A stretch of DNA of 64,000 bases from positions 60,984 through 124,983 of the IMG/VR virus record IMGVR_UViG_3300025914_000009; one strand, written 5' to 3'. Positions 7,515 through 20,270 of this stretch are shown one piece after another. This DNA is from a virus. Numbering within the stretch: position 1 is the stretch's first letter; the number at the start of each line of letters is the position of its first letter. Under the pieces are notes generated by a model. It did not search any database. It was not told the DNA's origin and saw nothing but the letters and a program-made list of their open reading frames with translations. The translations under genes and the position numbers were made by a program.

Positions 7515-7564
7515 ATTTGACAGCAAAAAACCAAATATTTCGACAAGATGTTTGACAGCAAAAA
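7515..7564 (+). promoter_or_regulatory. duplicated TTTGACAGCAAAAA motif at the Ro60 start
   Basis: The 14-mer TTTGACAGCAAAAA occurs at 7516-7529 and again at 7551-7564, straddling the Ro60 start codon at 7548. It contains ACAGCAAA, the constant motif of the nine RNA units downstream. The first copy lies in a small hairpin (ATTTG 7515-7519 with CAAAT 7532-7536). I infer an RNA-level binding site, perhaps for autoregulation by Ro60. The TTGACA part could instead be a promoter hexamer. Confidence 0.4.
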
Positions 7565-9254
7565 GACACAGTTATTCTCCATGCCGGAGAAGAAGAAAAC
7601 GACATCTGACTCACCATTTGTGCAAGCAGGTCTCAAAAAGAAAGCTCAAGTCCTATCAGGAAATGGAGCTATCAAGTATTCTACAACAGGGAATGCTTTT
7701 GTAGACCAGTTTGGTAAGATGGGAGAGTACAAAAAGCCCAGATCTTTCTCTGATATAGAAAAAGATTGCGAAGCTCTATGGGCAATTGATCCTTTGAGGG
7801 CAATCAAGATGAGCTTTTACATACGTACAATTACCAGACCTACCGACTTATTAGGAAAAACTACTTCCATTACCCAGAGGGGTGCTGAGCTTAAGCATGA
7901 GGGTATAATGAGGCTTATATGGTTGGCTACTAAAGATCAGCAAGCTTTCATAAAGAATCTATGGGTTCTTCCAGTCCTCGGATCATGGAAAGATATTATT
8001 ACAATGCTTCAGTATGATCTTGTATATCATGGATGGGGAGGTAGAGTTTTACCATGGGTAAGATTTGGTGATCTACTATTATCTGCCCTTGGGGATAAGA
8101 ATACTTGTGAACTGGTAAAGAAATACATACCTAGTATCAAGACCAATTCAAAATGTACTACTGTAGAAGCACAGGCTGATACCATGATTGCCAAATGGCT
8201 TTGCGGACTTCTATATCCTGAATATGTAGATAGTCCTGATGAGGTGCATGGTAAGTTTCATAAAAAGTACAGGAAGATGAAAACCTCAGGTACTGCTCAT
8301 GAATGGCAAAAGCTTATTTCTCAGAAGAAATTCGATAGAATAGACTTTGGTAAGATTCATGGGCGTGCTTTATCACTCCTTGTAAGGAGTAAATTCCTGA
8401 AGCGTCAAGGCTTACAGGATAAATATGCGGCATGGGTTAAGAAGCCTACTACAGAGGTTAAATACACAGGATATGTCCATGAGCTGTTCTCAGAACTCTT
8501 CCGAGGAAGTATGAGTGCAAAATACCCAACCTTGGCAAGTGTTCCAGAACATATGAGAGATACTATCAACAAACAGTTTGTGACCCTGGTTAACAAAGGT
8601 AAATCAGAGGATCATACCACCTCTCTGATTGTTGTTAGAGATACCTCAGGCTCAATGATGTCCACAGCTACGGGCACTAACATGTCTTCCTATGGAATCT
8701 CAAAGGCATTAGGGTTATACTTTGCAGAGTTCTTGGAGGGCCCATTTGCAAACTCTTGGATAGAATTTAACAGCGGAGCCAAGATGCACCAATGGACAGG
8801 TAAGACCCCGATTGAAAAATGGTTCAATGACACAAGTTCTGTTGTGGGAGGTACTGATTTTCAATCAGTTGTGAAATTATTCTGCCAAATAAAGGCTCAG
8901 GGAGTTCCTGAATCTCAATTCCCCTCAGGGATTCTATGTATTTCGGATGGTGAGTTCAATCCTGCCATGGCAAGCAAGACCAATGTAGAAAGCATGCTAC
9001 TTACTCTAAGAAATGCTGGTTTCAGTGAGGATTATGTAAGTAACTTTGTTATTGTCTTCTGGAACATACCTAATCAGTATTATGGAGCCATGTCTAGAAC
9101 AAAGTTCGAAACATATGGAAGTATCTCAAATGTATTCTACTTTGGGAGTTATTCAGCCTCTATAGTAGCCTTCTTAACATCCAAAATTCGAACAGCTGCA
9201 GAGCTGGTAGATGTAGCTCTTGATCAGGAAGTATTAAACTTAGTAAAGCTTTAG
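7548..9254 (+). CDS. Ro60/TROVE-domain RNA-binding protein (Ro/SS-A homologue)
   Basis: 568 aa, the usual Ro60 length. Residues about 40-350 form the helical HEAT-like TROVE ring (DPLRAIKMSFYIRT, LPVLGSWKDI). From about 355 a vWA domain carries an intact MIDAS: DTSGS at 365-369, GGTDF, SDGEF. Ro60 rings clamp ends of misfolded RNA in the central hole and bind Y RNAs on the outer surface; bacterial Ro60 works with exonucleases in RNA decay. The stop codon lies at the start of the first Y-like RNA unit (9254), and eight more follow at 10.35 kb, so protein and RNA partners appear co-encoded. Confidence 0.92.
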   Translation: MFDSKKTQLFSMPEKKKTTSDSPFVQAGLKKKAQVLSGNGAIKYSTTGNAFVDQFGKMGEYKKPRSFSDIEKDCEALWAIDPLRAIKMSFYIRTITRPTDLLGKTTSITQRGAELKHEGIMRLIWLATKDQQAFIKNLWVLPVLGSWKDIITMLQYDLVYHGWGGRVLPWVRFGDLLLSALGDKNTCELVKKYIPSIKTNSKCTTVEAQADTMIAKWLCGLLYPEYVDSPDEVHGKFHKKYRKMKTSGTAHEWQKLISQKKFDRIDFGKIHGRALSLLVRSKFLKRQGLQDKYAAWVKKPTTEVKYTGYVHELFSELFRGSMSAKYPTLASVPEHMRDTINKQFVTLVNKGKSEDHTTSLIVVRDTSGSMMSTATGTNMSSYGISKALGLYFAEFLEGPFANSWIEFNSGAKMHQWTGKTPIEKWFNDTSSVVGGTDFQSVVKLFCQIKAQGVPESQFPSGILCISDGEFNPAMASKTNVESMLLTLRNAGFSEDYVSNFVIVFWNIPNQYYGAMSRTKFETYGSISNVFYFGSYSASIVAFLTSKIRTAAELVDVALDQEVLNLVKL

Positions 9255-10025: not shown

Positions 10026-10341
10026 TGATGGATCAGTCTTTCTTTACTATTACATATTAGCTACCTCCAATAACTATGGAGGGTCAAGCTATTATTATTA
10101 CTCCAGTAGGACTGCTGTTACTACATTCTCCCCTGCGGGCTGGTCAAACTCATCAATTGACCCAGTGAGCAAATTTGAAAACCTCAAGGAGGAGGATAAG
10201 GAGGTTGATGTTGATCTTGATGAAGAAGTTAATGGAGATATGATGGAAGAGATGCAAGACGATCCTGATATTTCAGAGGTAGGAGATGACTCAGCAGGTG
10301 ATTCCTCTGGAGATTCATCAGGGGATGGTTCAGGTGACTAA
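9913..10341 (+). CDS. putative lipoprotein with acidic Ser/Gly/Asp tail
   Basis: Starting at the ATG at 9913, the protein begins with a lipoprotein signal (MRQYLLLALCLMLITWGC; Cys at 18). A Tyr/Ser-rich segment and a strongly acidic D/S/G repeat tail follow. The first 113 nt overlap the YqhA-like gene in the +1 frame, an arrangement reminiscent of embedded spanin lipoproteins, although the acidic tail is not spanin-like. Membrane-anchored, function unknown. Confidence 0.5.
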   Translation: MRQYLLLALCLMLITWGCLENTHFHRYKKAKVYTERNDDGSVFLYYYILATSNNYGGSSYYYYSSRTAVTTFSPAGWSNSSIDPVSKFENLKEEDKEVDVDLDEEVNGDMMEEMQDDPDISEVGDDSAGDSSGDSSGDGSGD

Positions 10342-10348
10342 TTTCAAA

Positions 10349-10407
10349 AGGGCACATACAGCAAACATTATAACAATTCACCTACATTTGAATTAAAAGT
10401 GTGCCCT
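10349..10407 (+). ncRNA. Y-like RNA unit 1 (minimal type)
   Basis: AGGGCACA (10349-10356) pairs with TGTGCCCT (10400-10407), 8 bp, followed by TACAGCAAA. At 59 nt it is the shortest form: closing stem, motif, A/T-rich loop with a weak TTCA/TGAA hairpin, and TTAAAAG before the 3' strand. GTTAA separates it from unit 2. Confidence 0.65.
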
Positions 10408-10411
10408 GTTA

Positions 10412-10531
10412 AGGTCTGCAACAGCAAATATATCCTTGTGGCACTGGGGGTCAGTGGTGGAAATCCACTCTGTGGGGAAACCCAAAGTAGCTTAGTACTT
10501 AGAGCACCAGTTGGAGAAAAAATGCAGACCT
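10412..10531 (+). ncRNA. Y-like RNA unit 2 with permuted tRNA-like domain
   Basis: Closing stem AGGTCTGCA/TGCAGACCT (9 bp), then ACAGCAAA. Inside, tRNA parts come in permuted order: anticodon-stem 3' strand ACTGG (10443-10447), variable GGGTC, T arm AGTGG-TGGAAAT-CCACT (10453-10469), acceptor 3' strand CTGTGGG, GAAA tetraloop (10477-10480), acceptor 5' strand CCCAAAG, TA, D arm (10490-10505), then CCAGT (10507-10511), which pairs with ACTGG. The acceptor stem is thus a capped hairpin, and the closing stem replaces the anticodon loop. One A-G mismatch in the acceptor. This is the clearest YrlA-like unit. Confidence 0.75.
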
Positions 10532-10535
10532 GTTA

Positions 10536-10649
10536 AGATACCTAACAGCAAACAATTTGATCCTCTTGTGGATTAGTAGCTTAATTGGTAAAGCGCCCAA
10601 TTGATAATTGGGAGATCCTAGTTCAATTCTAGGCTTTAAAGAGGTATCT
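10536..10649 (+). ncRNA. Y-like RNA unit 3 with tRNA-Ile(GAU)-like core
   Basis: Closing stem AGATACCT/AGGTATCT, then AACAGCAAA. The interior keeps normal tRNA order: D arm 10579-10594, anticodon arm CCCAA-TTGATAA-TTGGG (10596-10612; anticodon GAT), T arm CCTAG-TTCAATT-CTAGG (10617-10633). The expected acceptor strands (GGATTAG against CTTTAAA) do not pair, so the unit's own closing stem takes the acceptor position, with an extra ATCC/GGAT hairpin inserted before the D arm. A canonical aminoacylatable tRNA-Ile is unlikely. Confidence 0.65.
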
Positions 10650-10653
10650 GATA

Positions 10654-10842
10654 AGGGTTCTTACAGCAAATATTAGCAAATGGAAACCTTTGGTCGGAGG
10701 TTCAAATCCTCCCCTCCCAACCAGATTTGGTGTCACCCTAAGGTGTTCAGGACAGCCAAATCTGGTGACTAATCAACCTGACCATATCTGGTTGGGAGGT
10801 AGCTCAGTCTGGTTAGAGCAGAGGATGCAACAAAAGAACCCT
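10654..10842 (+). ncRNA. Y-like RNA unit 4: permuted tRNA with encoded CCA
   Basis: Closing stem AGGGTTCT/AGAACCCT, then TACAGCAAA. The 3' half of a tRNA comes first: T arm GGAGG-TTCAAAT-CCTCC (10696-10712), acceptor strand CCTCCCA (10713-10719), A73 and CCA (10721-10723). After a 69-nt hairpin-rich spacer comes the 5' half: TGGGAGG (10793-10799, perfect 7-bp match), TA, D arm GCTC..GAGC with GG in the loop, and GAGGA pairing partly with ACCTT (10686-10690). If the spacer were removed at CCA, a mature-looking acceptor end would result. Confidence 0.75.
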
Positions 10843-10846
10843 GATA

Positions 10847-10906
10847 AGGAGACTTACAGCAAAACAACTCAACTTTCAACCGTTTATTTGAAATAGAGAG
10901 TCTCCT
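10847..10906 (+). ncRNA. Y-like RNA unit 5 (minimal type)
   Basis: AGGAGACT/AGTCTCCT closes a 60-nt unit with TACAGCAAA directly after the 5' strand. The loop is A/T-rich with no stable inner domain. Same class as units 1 and 8. Confidence 0.65.
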
Positions 10907-10910
10907 GATA

Positions 10911-10999
10911 AAGTGCCACACAGCAAATATTAATTCTTTTTCAACAAAGACCGCCCCTGGATGGGAGGAAGCTAAAGAGGTTCGATTCCTCAGGCACTT
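10911..10999 (+). ncRNA. Y-like RNA unit 6 with T arm joined to the closing stem
   Basis: AAGTGCC (10911-10917) pairs perfectly with GGCACTT (10993-10999); CACAGCAAA follows the 5' strand. Directly before the 3' strand lies a T arm, AGAGG-TTCGATT-CCTCA (10976-10992), so here the closing stem is geometrically an acceptor stem stacked on the T arm as in a tRNA. The D-arm region is replaced by the motif and an A/T-rich stretch. Confidence 0.65.
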
Positions 11000-11003
11000 G
11001 ATA

Positions 11004-11150
11004 AGGTGAGCAGCAGCATTTAACTAAATAATGGCCCTAAGGTTGGGAAAACTGAAACAGTCATACCGATACTCTCATAGGTTAATACGAAAAGAGTAGT
11101 GTCAAAGGCCCCAAGGGGTACTGGCGGCTATACAAAGAATATGCTCATCT
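11004..11150 (+). ncRNA. Y-like RNA unit 7 (large, diverged motif)
   Basis: AGGTGAGCA/TGCTCATCT (9 bp with one G-U). The motif here reads GCAGCATTT, a variant of ACAGCAAA. The 130-nt interior has GGCC (11033 and 11107) and ACTG/CAGT (11052 and 11058) hairpin options but no tRNA-like loops that I can see. Confidence 0.55.
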
Positions 11151-11154
11151 GATA

Positions 11155-11214
11155 AGGTCACATACAGCAAAAAGCTAAAAGCAATCATCTTGTAAATGAT
11201 AAAAACTGTGACCT
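11155..11214 (+). ncRNA. Y-like RNA unit 8 (minimal type, last of array)
   Basis: AGGTCACA/TGTGACCT closes 60 nt with TACAGCAAA after the 5' strand and a small ATCAT/ATGAT hairpin inside. The trailing GATAAG is present but no further unit follows. Confidence 0.65.
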
Positions 11215-11251
11215 GATAAGTAGAGTCTGAAAACCTAAAACATTAATTACG

Positions 11252-13932: not shown

Positions 13933-14406
13933 ATGGATGTACAATATTTTATAGATAAGTTTGGGGCTATTCCTGAAGAACAATGGACAACTGAGTGCTA
14001 TCAAGATAACCAAAACAGGAGATGTGCTCTTGGTCACTGCTCTCCAAATGTTATGAGTAAGTATAAAGATGAACGAGTGGAGAGCTTTGTTGAGATAGCA
14101 GAGAGTCAAGAGGAAGAAGGCAGAGTGCTTTTGCAGTTATTTTGGGATCATGAGCTCTGTGTTCCACCAGTGAATGATGGATACGAGATAAGGTACACAC
14201 AAGGTACCCCAAAGCAAAGAATCCTAGCTGCCCTAAGGGATATACAGAAGAAGGAACAGATGAAGACTGCTTCTATAATTCCTCTTTGCTCAGAGTGTGG
14301 CAAACCTATCACAGAATGTGATTGTGAAGAAGAGATTGACGAGGAAGAAGATTGGGGCGCAGGAGCTGCAGAAGAGGTAGATCATATAGTACTAGAAGTT
14401 ATTTAA
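13933..14406 (+). CDS. small phage protein with CALGH motif, copy 2
   Basis: 157 aa. Residues 1-110 resemble the gene at 5748 (IPEEQW, RCALGH, ND-G, YTQGTPKQRILAAL). A C-terminal extension adds a CSECGKPITECDC knuckle, a likely zinc ribbon, and an acidic tail (EEEIDEEED). The extension suggests fusion of the common phage domain with a metal-binding module. Function unknown. Confidence 0.6.
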   Translation: MDVQYFIDKFGAIPEEQWTTECYQDNQNRRCALGHCSPNVMSKYKDERVESFVEIAESQEEEGRVLLQLFWDHELCVPPVNDGYEIRYTQGTPKQRILAALRDIQKKEQMKTASIIPLCSECGKPITECDCEEEIDEEEDWGAGAAEEVDHIVLEVI

Positions 14407-14409
14407 ATA

Positions 14410-14482
14410 TTTGACCTAGACTTAGACTTAGACTTAAGCTCAAATCAGTCCCCAGACGATTTAGACTTAGACTTGTGTCAAA
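14410..14482 (+). repeat. TTAGAC hexamer repeats within a hairpin
   Basis: Two short runs of the hexamer TTAGAC (about 14418-14437 and 14461-14475) are flanked by TTTGAC (14410-14415) and GTCAAA (14477-14482), which pair. Repeats of this kind can be protein-binding iterons or replication slippage products; nothing decides which. Confidence 0.45.
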
Positions 14483-14590
14483 AGACTTAGGTTCAGAACA
14501 ACAAAATAAGATGTCAGGTAGTTAATTAAATCCATAGGTCGCAGGTTTGAATCCTGTCTCCGCCTCTGTTCCGTAGCATTTTTTGTTTAA

Positions 14591-14619
14591 ACGGCTGGTG
14601 TTTCTACATTAGCCTCATT
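14591..14619 (+). terminator. hairpin with TTCT loop inside the permuted RNA spacer
   Basis: GGCTGGTGT and ACATTAGCC pair (two G-U) around TTCT, followed by TCATTTT. The stem-loop core GTGTTTCTACA is the same as in the terminator at 1634, so a phage-typical terminator is likely. Confidence 0.5.
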
Positions 14620-14639
14620 TTAAACCAAATACTCATCAT

Positions 14640-14810
14640 ATGGCAGGAAAAGCTGGTGGTAAAGGTGGCAGAAAGATCGGAAGAAACAAGCGTAGAAATG
14701 AAAGAAAAGGTAGTCCAATCTCCCTTTTTGTTAGAGGAAAGATCACTGCGCACAAGTATTGGGAATTAACTGGGTTGTCTTCTCGTATTAAGCAGAGAGA
14801 AGCTGCCTAA
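14640..14810 (+). CDS. 56-aa highly basic Gly/Lys/Arg protein
   Basis: Begins MAGKAGGKGGRKIGRNKRR, a basic glycine-rich lead like those of small RNA-binding or ribosome-associated proteins and of many small Bacteroidetes-phage proteins, then a helical C-terminus (YWELTGLSSRIKQREAA). It lies between the two halves of the permuted tRNA-like RNA, so it would have to be translated from that precursor or from a separate transcript. RNA binding is inferred from charge only. Confidence 0.6.
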   Translation: MAGKAGGKGGRKIGRNKRRNERKGSPISLFVRGKITAHKYWELTGLSSRIKQREAA

Positions 14811-14968
14811 AGTATCTATTGTCCAATAATAGACAAGTCCAGAGAACTGAGTTTCTACTCCCTTCTCTGGCATTCAAGGCGGAGTAGTTCAGTTGACAGA
14901 ACAATGGAATAATATTAGCTTAAGGCTACTTGAAAACATCTTGACAGTGAAAAACTGTATTAATTACA

Positions 14969-15008
14969 GGGAGGGCGGATAGGATAGATTCCCCCCTCCC
15001 CTTTTTTT
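14969..15008 (+). terminator. strong intrinsic terminator
   Basis: GGGAGGG (14969-14975) pairs with CCCTCCC (14994-15000), followed by a seven-T run. It ends the permuted tRNA-like transcript before the next tRNA. Confidence 0.8.
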
Positions 15009-15025
15009 CTTCTTATCTATCACAA

Positions 15026-15119
15026 GGCGAAGTATGCAAATTGGTAAAGCAGTCCTCGTTGAGAGGATGGGACTAAATTCTGGGTAATGTCCATGGTAGT
15101 TCGAATCTATCCCTCGCCA
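15026..15119 (+). tRNA. class II-like tRNA, anticodon loop lacks U33
   Basis: Acceptor GGCGAAG/CCTCGCC (one A-C mismatch), D arm with GG, anticodon arm GTCCT-CGTTGAG-AGGAT, long variable arm (GGAC/GTCC, 15-nt loop) and T arm GGTAG-TTCGAAT-CTATC. A long variable arm points to Leu, Ser or Tyr, but positions 34-36 read TTG (Gln) and position 33 is G instead of U. Decoding is therefore doubtful and it may be another tRNA mimic. It ends 13 nt before the next start codon; no CCA is encoded. Confidence 0.6.
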
Positions 15120-15132
15120 CTAAAATTCTTTT

Positions 15133-19851: not shown

Positions 19852-19952
19852 AGTCAGATAGCTCAGTTGGTTAGAGTACCTGCTAGGGCTTGATCGAAAG
19901 ATCAACGAAGCTGCCGCACAGGAGGTCAGGAGTTCGAATCTCCCTCTGACTT
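19852..19952 (+). tRNA. tRNA-like gene with hairpin insertion in the anticodon loop
   Basis: Acceptor AGTCAGA (19852-19858) with TCTGACT (19945-19951) is perfect; D arm GCTC..GAGT with GG; T arm AGGAG-TTCGAAT-CTCCC. Between CCTG (19879-19882) and CAGG (19919-19922) lie 36 nt instead of about 9, including a hairpin TTGATC-GAAA-GATCAA. If the extra 28 nt were removed the loop would read CTGCCGC (anticodon GCC). No CCA; ends 2 nt before a start codon. The motif TTTGACAGCGAAA, close to the Ro60-leader motif, lies upstream (19834-19846). Confidence 0.65.
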
Positions 19953-19953
19953 C

Positions 19954-20205
19954 ATGAAAAGAAGAAAGAAAGCTAGAGGTCTAAGGTACAAGTTAGATTA
20001 CATAGCCTTCTGGAAAACTAAAGGGATATATGGGCAAACTAGAATAGATCGCATGAGAGAAAGAAAAAGAAGAAGATTTGAAAAGTGGTTTGAAAGGAAG
20101 AAGCAGAGAAAATATGGCCCTTGGTGGCAGAATGGAAGAATGGTACAGTGGTGCGAATATCCAGAAGGTTCAATATGTGATTATCCTTGCAATGGTGATT
20201 GCTAG
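19954..20205 (+). CDS. very basic Arg/Trp-rich protein, 83 aa
   Basis: MKRRKKARGLRYKLDY start, then RMRERKRRRFEKWFERKKQ and a Cys-containing end (CEYPEGSICDYPCNGDC). The positive charge suggests RNA or DNA binding; the four cysteines may bind zinc. It is flanked on both sides by tRNA-like elements, so a tRNA-related role is possible. Confidence 0.55.
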   Translation: MKRRKKARGLRYKLDYIAFWKTKGIYGQTRIDRMRERKRRRFEKWFERKKQRKYGPWWQNGRMVQWCEYPEGSICDYPCNGDC

Positions 20206-20212
20206 GATTGAT

Positions 20213-20270
20213 AGGGGGATAGCTCAGTGGTAGAGCATTCTTGTCGGAAGTTCGATTCTTCCTCCCCCTA
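20213..20270 (+). ncRNA. tRNA-like element lacking an anticodon arm
   Basis: AGGGGGA/TCCCCCT acceptor stem (perfect), TA, D arm GCTC-AGTGGTA-GAGC, A26, then only eight bases (TTCTTGTC) before the T arm GGAAG-TTCGATT-CTTCC, and ACA at the 3' end. The anticodon stem-loop is absent, so it cannot decode. It ends 2 nt before the DNA polymerase start codon. It could be a processing signal for RNase P/Z or a tRNA mimic. Confidence 0.65.

Follow-up and report, generated by a model that had tools for sequence, protein, structure and literature searches.

How do the two halves of a tRNA-like RNA come to lie on either side of a protein gene, and do they act as one molecule? This question is raised by positions 14508-14942 of the stretch analysed here, which comprises the final 64,000 bases of an IMG/VR virus record of 124,983 bases and is called the window throughout. 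The genes of the window include a UvsX-like recombinase and a DNA polymerase; together with the ordinary tRNA genes these indicate that the window comes from a bacterial virus. Positions 14508-14942 hold a circularly permuted tRNA-like gene with a small protein gene between its halves. Read 5' to 3', an outer arm is followed by AATTAAA, the 3' strand of the anticodon stem, the variable loop, the T-arm, the 3' strand of the acceptor and T73. After 74 nt come a gene of 56 codons, a hairpin, the 5' strand of the acceptor, the D-arm and the 5' strand of the anticodon stem, and a further 15 nt lead to the second arm of the outer helix. Relatives of the 56-aa protein were found in two viral contigs, L001 (phage G001, 33,985 bases) and L002 (phage G002, 126,034 bases), with 79% and 71% identity. 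The features are listed below, with the comparison to these two phages.

14404-14507, plus strand: non-coding leader with four copies of a GACTTA repeat; 77-91% identity among the three phages (14406-14507 compared)
14508-14523, plus strand: 5' strand of the outer clamp helix, AAGATGT CAGGTAGTT; partners at 14924-14932 and 14936-14942, with three double-changed pairs and four more that vary on one side only
14524-14530, plus strand: junction side of the 3' half, AA TTA AA, giving a putative anticodon TTA and then A37 A38; the same site reads CTA in G001 and CCA in G002
14531-14565, plus strand: tRNA 3' half (anticodon stem 3' strand, variable loop, T-arm, acceptor 3' strand, T73), identified by the scanner, by ARAGORN on the joined halves and by covariation
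14593-14614, plus strand: hairpin with a GTTTCTAC loop, then TCATTTT; the sole match of the terminator scan, not in the 17-nt gap of G001
14640-14810, plus strand: gene of the basic 56-aa protein, in the acceptor cap
14839-14870, plus strand: hairpin immediately 5' of the 5' half, without a T-run; 6 of 12 pairs double-changed
14878-14908, plus strand: tRNA 5' half (acceptor 5' strand, D-arm, anticodon stem 5' strand), identified by the scanner and by covariation; 77-97% identity among orthologs
14909-14942, plus strand: junction side of the 5' half, with A32 U33, AATATTAGCTTAA, the clamp helix 3' strand and the AAA bulge; 82% identity in every ortholog pair, pairing with 14508-14523
14969-15008, plus strand: hairpin with a GGATAGGATAGATTCC loop, then seven T; the probable transcript end, in all three phages

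All the long-range pairings that a first-pass annotation had read from the letters alone lie where it had placed them. CTCCGCC (14558-14564) pairs with GGCGGAG (14878-14884) in 7/7 positions and TCCAT (14531-14535) with ATGGA (14904-14908) in 5/5. The outer helix joins AAGATGT to ACATCTT (14508-14514/14936-14942) and CAGGTAGTT to GGCTACTTG (14515-14523/14924-14932, G-U pairs included), and is broken by a single AAA bulge. The T-arm (14541-14557) and the D-arm (14887-14902) are both complete, and an eighth acceptor pair is available between A14877 and T14565, an A:T that both relatives share. When each precursor was folded alone, the acceptor helix was recovered with a mean pair probability of 0.97-1.00 across a span of ~260-400 nt, and the inner pairs of the outer helix with 0.88-1.00, at z-scores of -2.6 to -3.1; the anticodon stem was strong in the window only (0.79, versus 0.17 and 0.12 in G001 and G002). 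The elbow had been described as a paired change, U56 with A19. Its letters, GA in the D-loop and TTTGAAT in the T-loop, are retained in all three orthologs, but the assignment depends on how an 8-nt D-loop is numbered. An ordinary tRNA gene, L292, has the same combination, a D-loop AGTTGA with a T-loop TTTGA.

To measure chance, a scanner was used whose four required stems (acceptor, T, D and anticodon) have to occur in the permuted arrangement. In the three related records (285,009 bases, with both strands scanned) five places scored at least 20, namely the locus itself (22.5), its two orthologs (22.5 and 23.0) and two RNAs of a nearby array (22.5 and 20.5), the latter at window positions 10443 and 10686. 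Neither shuffled nor natural sequence equalled the locus. Shuffled sequence yielded one match of at least 20 in 1,710,054 bases. A natural control of 237 viral loci, which are mostly chance matches to two overly short DNA patterns, gave five such matches in 2,134,672 bases on both strands, the best at 22.0 and none at 22.5, and the scanner maximum in three clusters of ordinary tRNA genes was 21.0. Among 1,241,612 loose elements resembling the 5' half in other loci, two could form both the 7/7 and the 5/5 pairing with the 3' half of the window.

Searches of viral_contigs with the 56-aa protein and with its alignment returned the same two loci each time, and a junction pattern led to them too; genome_contigs and the phage collection yielded none. 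Both relatives present the 3' half, the gene and the 5' half in the same order, with an intervening sequence of 312 nt in the window, ~255 nt in G001 and ~402 nt in G002. The first-pass annotation had named relatives that keep the gene and lose the pairing as the observation that would speak against it; only these two were found and both keep gene and pairing. Over 37 pairs in the three orthologs 98.2% of cells are paired, and nine pairs carry double compensatory changes, four in the acceptor, two in the T stem and three in the outer helix, the last being conserved though it is not a tRNA part. Shuffles gave 2.9 double-changed pairs and none of 500 equalled the observed nine; controls in which one partner was slid gave 0-2. 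These counts and the scanner controls uphold the earlier judgement that chance is unlikely. The anticodon stem and the D-arm are invariant and therefore give no information for or against their pairing among three sequences. The matching changes in paired bases, with the layout kept in two related viruses, indicate that the halves belong together, as had been proposed along with the tRNA-like character, the permuted order and the gene between the halves. Identity is 74-97% in the halves, arms and leader, 72-76% in the coding gene and 38-63% in the gaps between parts. The hairpin at 14839-14870 also covaries, whereas the long hairpin predicted in the leader has no pair with a double change. A permuted tRNA-derived gene is maintained by selection in these bacterial viruses.

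The permuted gene was reported neither by ARAGORN nor by the Rfam tRNA model on the window, a silence that is expected from the permuted order. Given the joined halves, ARAGORN drew a full cloverleaf in all three phages, with anticodons tta (window), cta (G001) and cca (G002). The joined window halves matched 45 records of the phage collection; the matches with the lowest E values are annotated tRNA-Asn genes, with 82-83% identity over 58-61 nt (E 5e-8), and span the junction. The joined G001 form had zero matches in the same collection. In viral_contigs 98 stretches carry the 5'-half motif. In 91 of them it belongs to an ordinary tRNA gene with the 3' half directly downstream; the others are the two permuted relatives and five that the script left unclassed (contig end or weak acceptor) and that look ordinary. 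Ancestry from an ordinary tRNA gene follows from these matches, and among the 98 stretches the permutation is peculiar to this phage group. All three orthologs have a C directly after the discriminator. So do 35 of the 42 ordinary tRNA genes considered in these phages (a set of 44 minus two without a fitting acceptor register), and the 3' end therefore resembles a processed one.

An ORF flanked by two tRNA copies, whose outer halves were then lost, would yield the present layout. At window positions 19852-20270 a tRNA-like gene with a long hairpin inserted at the anticodon is followed by a small basic ORF and a 58-nt tRNA-like RNA; the latter is without an anticodon arm, ends just before the ATG of the DNA polymerase (20273) and has its counterpart in all three phages. 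Such an ORF between two tRNA-like genes is a plausible starting point if the locus is a relic, in which two tRNA copies in tandem enclosed a gene and their outer halves decayed. A relic would not be expected to show compensatory changes between the halves, nor halves conserved about as well as or better than the coding gene (74-97% versus 72-76%). Given the covariation this view is unlikely, and we hold it to be very improbable indeed.

We then considered how the locus is transcribed. The two halves had been suggested to be possible separate transcripts that assemble in trans. A scan for sigma-70-type promoters on the plus strand found no promoter-like site in 14300-15130. In G001 only 17 nt separate the 3' half from the ATG of the gene, with AGGAGG nine bases ahead of the ATG, indicating that gene and 3' half share one transcript there and that trans-assembly is not needed; the gap is too short for a second promoter, and assembly from two promoters was rejected. 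In the window alone a T-tailed hairpin stands between the 3' half and the gene, so that partial termination, and hence two transcripts, is possible there. The hairpin between the gene and the 5' half (14839-14870), earlier called terminator-like, has no T-run and was discarded as a terminator; it is conserved, and other hairpins of these phages share its GTTTCTAC loop. The T-run hairpin after the 5' half is found in 3/3 phages, and in the window (14969-15008) it was missed by the simple terminator scan because this accepts only loops of 3-8.

Two observations concern the surroundings. These phage genomes repeatedly carry hairpins whose loop is GTTTCTAC or GTTTCCAC (window 1641, 14600 and 14851; L005 to L009), many of them before T-rich stretches. 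A second tRNA-like RNA lies directly downstream (window 15026-15119; L001 3382-3474; L002 3388-3482); its variable arm (AAATTCTGGGTA) is conserved and its anticodon arm differs strongly among the three phages.

The 56-aa protein has no Pfam and no PHROGs match, and its AlphaFold model is helical (pLDDT 70.9). The gene and the RNA occur together in 3/3 phages, the conserved hairpin adjoins the 5' half and the Shine-Dalgarno sequence of G001 abuts the acceptor. These features would suit an RNA that stays uncut, in which the tRNA-like fold joins the untranslated regions of the 56-aa mRNA like a clamp and protects or regulates it, perhaps through the protein itself. A clamp would have no need of a T-loop, a D-arm and a tRNA-like 3' end, and cutting by host RNase P is to be expected; we regard this explanation as improbable.

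The reading that we favour, tentatively and at a little less than an even chance, is that a tRNA-derived permuted RNA, made as a single transcript with the mRNA as its acceptor cap, is cut into two paired pieces and may serve as a tRNA mimic. One transcript would comprise the leader, the 3' half, the mRNA of the basic 56-aa protein, the 5' half and the terminator. Its halves would fold into the upper part of a tRNA (acceptor, T and D arms), the mRNA forming an oversized acceptor cap, with the two outer arms of the transcript clamped beneath the anticodon stem. A predicted cut by RNase P before 14878 and another by a tRNA 3'-end enzyme after 14565 would free the mRNA. A two-piece tRNA-like RNA, base-paired through the anticodon stem and the outer helix, would remain unligated, on the model of two-piece tmRNA. 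As a tRNA mimic it could be a decoy for, or a recruiter of, a tRNA-handling protein, and our guess is that the 56-aa protein is a candidate partner. The 8-bp acceptor (A-1:U73) is non-canonical and could hinder RNase P.

An unligated product is favoured because the junction has no BHB motif in any of the three orthologs and the three phage records gave zero matches to RtcB, RNA_ligase or tRNA_int_endo. The T4 Rnl1 search is uninformative on this point, its control having given no match; the host may supply a ligase. Retention in all three phages of the anticodon stem and of U33...A37 A38, which an unligated product does not need, fits the opposite view, that the locus is a true circularly permuted tRNA gene. 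Here the outer arms would be spliced out as an intron in two parts at the 33/34 boundary, ligation of the ends would pass through a circular intermediate, RNase P and tRNase Z would remove the cap, and the product would decode with UUA, CUA or CCA. All three joined forms make a clean cloverleaf with U33 and A37 A38, positions 32, 34 and 35 vary while both flanking arms are largely conserved, and the C after the discriminator agrees with such a product. In the phage with CUA (G001; L009 and L007), UAG stops are rarer, 2/51 versus 44/237 in the two relatives (Fisher p 0.01; ORFs of 80 aa or more), and 2/42 versus 32/198 on conserved ORFs (p 0.055). Besides the missing motif and enzymes, this view has against it that the phage with UUA (the window) does not avoid UAA, which makes up 81 of its 120 stops, that the anticodon differs in all three phages, and that G002 already has an ordinary tRNA-Trp(CCA). 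We consider a ligated tRNA unlikely, though it is the main rival of the favoured reading, and the idea of a suppressor tRNA is weak.

Several further ideas were rejected. Reassignment of a stop codon does not agree with the free use of UAA in the UUA phage or with TAG as the stop of some G001 genes, including the 56-aa gene. Archaeal splicing was set aside as no endonuclease match was obtained. For group I and group II introns an Rfam search with E allowed up to 10 was empty, although a permuted intron could escape it, and inspection by eye revealed neither an intron core nor a terminal G before the 3' exon. It is quite unlikely, in our estimate, that some unknown splicing activity removes the clamp arms as a split intron and joins 33 to 34, giving a circular RNA with the 56-aa frame and then a new decoding tRNA (UUA, CUA or CCA). 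If true, this would be a spliced permuted tRNA gene with an mRNA cap in a bacterial virus.

A different origin is suggested by the neighbourhood. At 7548-9254, 5.3 kb upstream of the permuted gene, the window carries a Ro60-like gene for a 568-aa protein, annotated by PHROG as 'RNA-binding protein'. With a model of pLDDT 66, the top three PDB fold matches of this protein are all Ro60 at E 1e-3 to 6e-3. None of the three records is matched by Pfam TROVE, the Ro60 family model, so that the Ro60 identity is better taken as a lead than as proof. Downstream of the gene an array (10340-11230) contains stem-loops arranged as stem, ACAGCAAA, intervening sequence, stem and CTGATAAG, with 11 copies of ACAGCAAA in the window versus 2.8 expected. 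Two of its modules (~10415-10535 and ~10655-10845) contain permuted tRNA-like domains according to the scanner. Besides G002, six more loci have the Ro60-like gene, and stem-loops lie downstream in all three whose downstream DNA was read (L257, L258 and L262). L257 has one permuted tRNA-like domain (score 22.5) and L258 has one that was read by eye; permuted tRNA-like RNAs read by eye in the G002 array scored below 20 and were not counted. The Ro60-linked arrays are likely a phage Y RNA family, and the two permuted RNAs of the window array resemble YrlA-type Y RNAs of bacteria (PMC8394870; Chen et al. 2014, cited in PMC7790460).

Other arrays with conserved ACAGCAA and CTGATAAG follow a Ro60-like gene in L005 (minus strand, ~11100-9950), L257 (2270-2740), L258 (11745-12080) and L262 (12155-12400). 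In the G002 array (L005 minus strand, 10380-10200) an extra hairpin seems, by eye, to be inserted in the T stem of a permuted tRNA-like domain. The window modules 10848-10907 and 11156-11215 resemble the Dictyostelium class I RNA model, with a terminal stem and a CUUACAGCAA motif, at an E of ~3, well below the cut-off.

The permuted gene itself could thus be a YrlA-type Y RNA, a permuted tRNA-like domain on a Ro60-binding stem, that acquired an mRNA in its acceptor cap. PMC8394870 describes YrlA as a stem, made by pairing of the RNA's two ends, that carries a tRNA-like domain (D, T and acceptor arms); the locus likewise has these arms, in permuted order, above a stem of its outer ends. The Ro60-like gene and the two permuted RNAs of its array lie in the same window. 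Unlike YrlA, the locus lacks the array signature ACAGCAAA / CTGATAAG, carries a protein gene in its cap and is kept in G001, whose 34-kb contig, a fragment, shows no Ro60-like gene or array. Moreover, the 56-aa gene and the permuted gene are absent from the six other Ro-like loci, the retained anticodon stem and tRNA 3' end are superfluous for YrlA, and the silence of the TROVE model counts against a Ro60 partner. Descent from a Y RNA is in our view improbable.

The locus was also compared with other systems. In Nanoarchaeum equitans, split tRNAs have complementary arms that extend the halves at the anticodon-loop junction, as in the phage locus; unlike theirs, the halves described here neighbour each other in one unit, without a BHB motif. 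Permuted tRNA genes are described in red and green algae, a nucleomorph and Thermofilum pendens, and in the algae and the one archaeon BHB splicing explains them (PMC3978253). The phage locus resembles the genes described there in that the 3' half is upstream, a cap lies between the acceptor strands and the junction is in the anticodon loop. It differs in its occurrence in a bacterial virus, in whose records and those of its relatives no splicing enzyme was found, in a long clamp helix in place of the BHB motif, and in an intervening sequence of ~255-402 nt with a gene, versus 1-74 bp in the 2014 list of PMC3978253. Two-piece tmRNA of bacteria and some phages is, as described in PMC9004378, likewise a permuted tRNA-like RNA made as one precursor and ending as two pieces. 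The tmRNA model gave no match on the window at E up to 10; the phage RNA, unlike two-piece tmRNA, has a D-arm and an anticodon stem, and its ORF is in the cap and not a tag-coding domain. The locus is thus set apart from permuted tRNA genes by the BHB motif and cap length, from tmRNA by the model and from Y RNAs by the array signature, and among the open-licence papers that were searched none was seen to report a gene of such kind in a phage or bacterium.

The locus raises the question whether its RNA is ligated by an unknown activity or works in two pieces, and either answer would be informative. In these phages the arrangement would couple the ends of an mRNA to tRNA processing.
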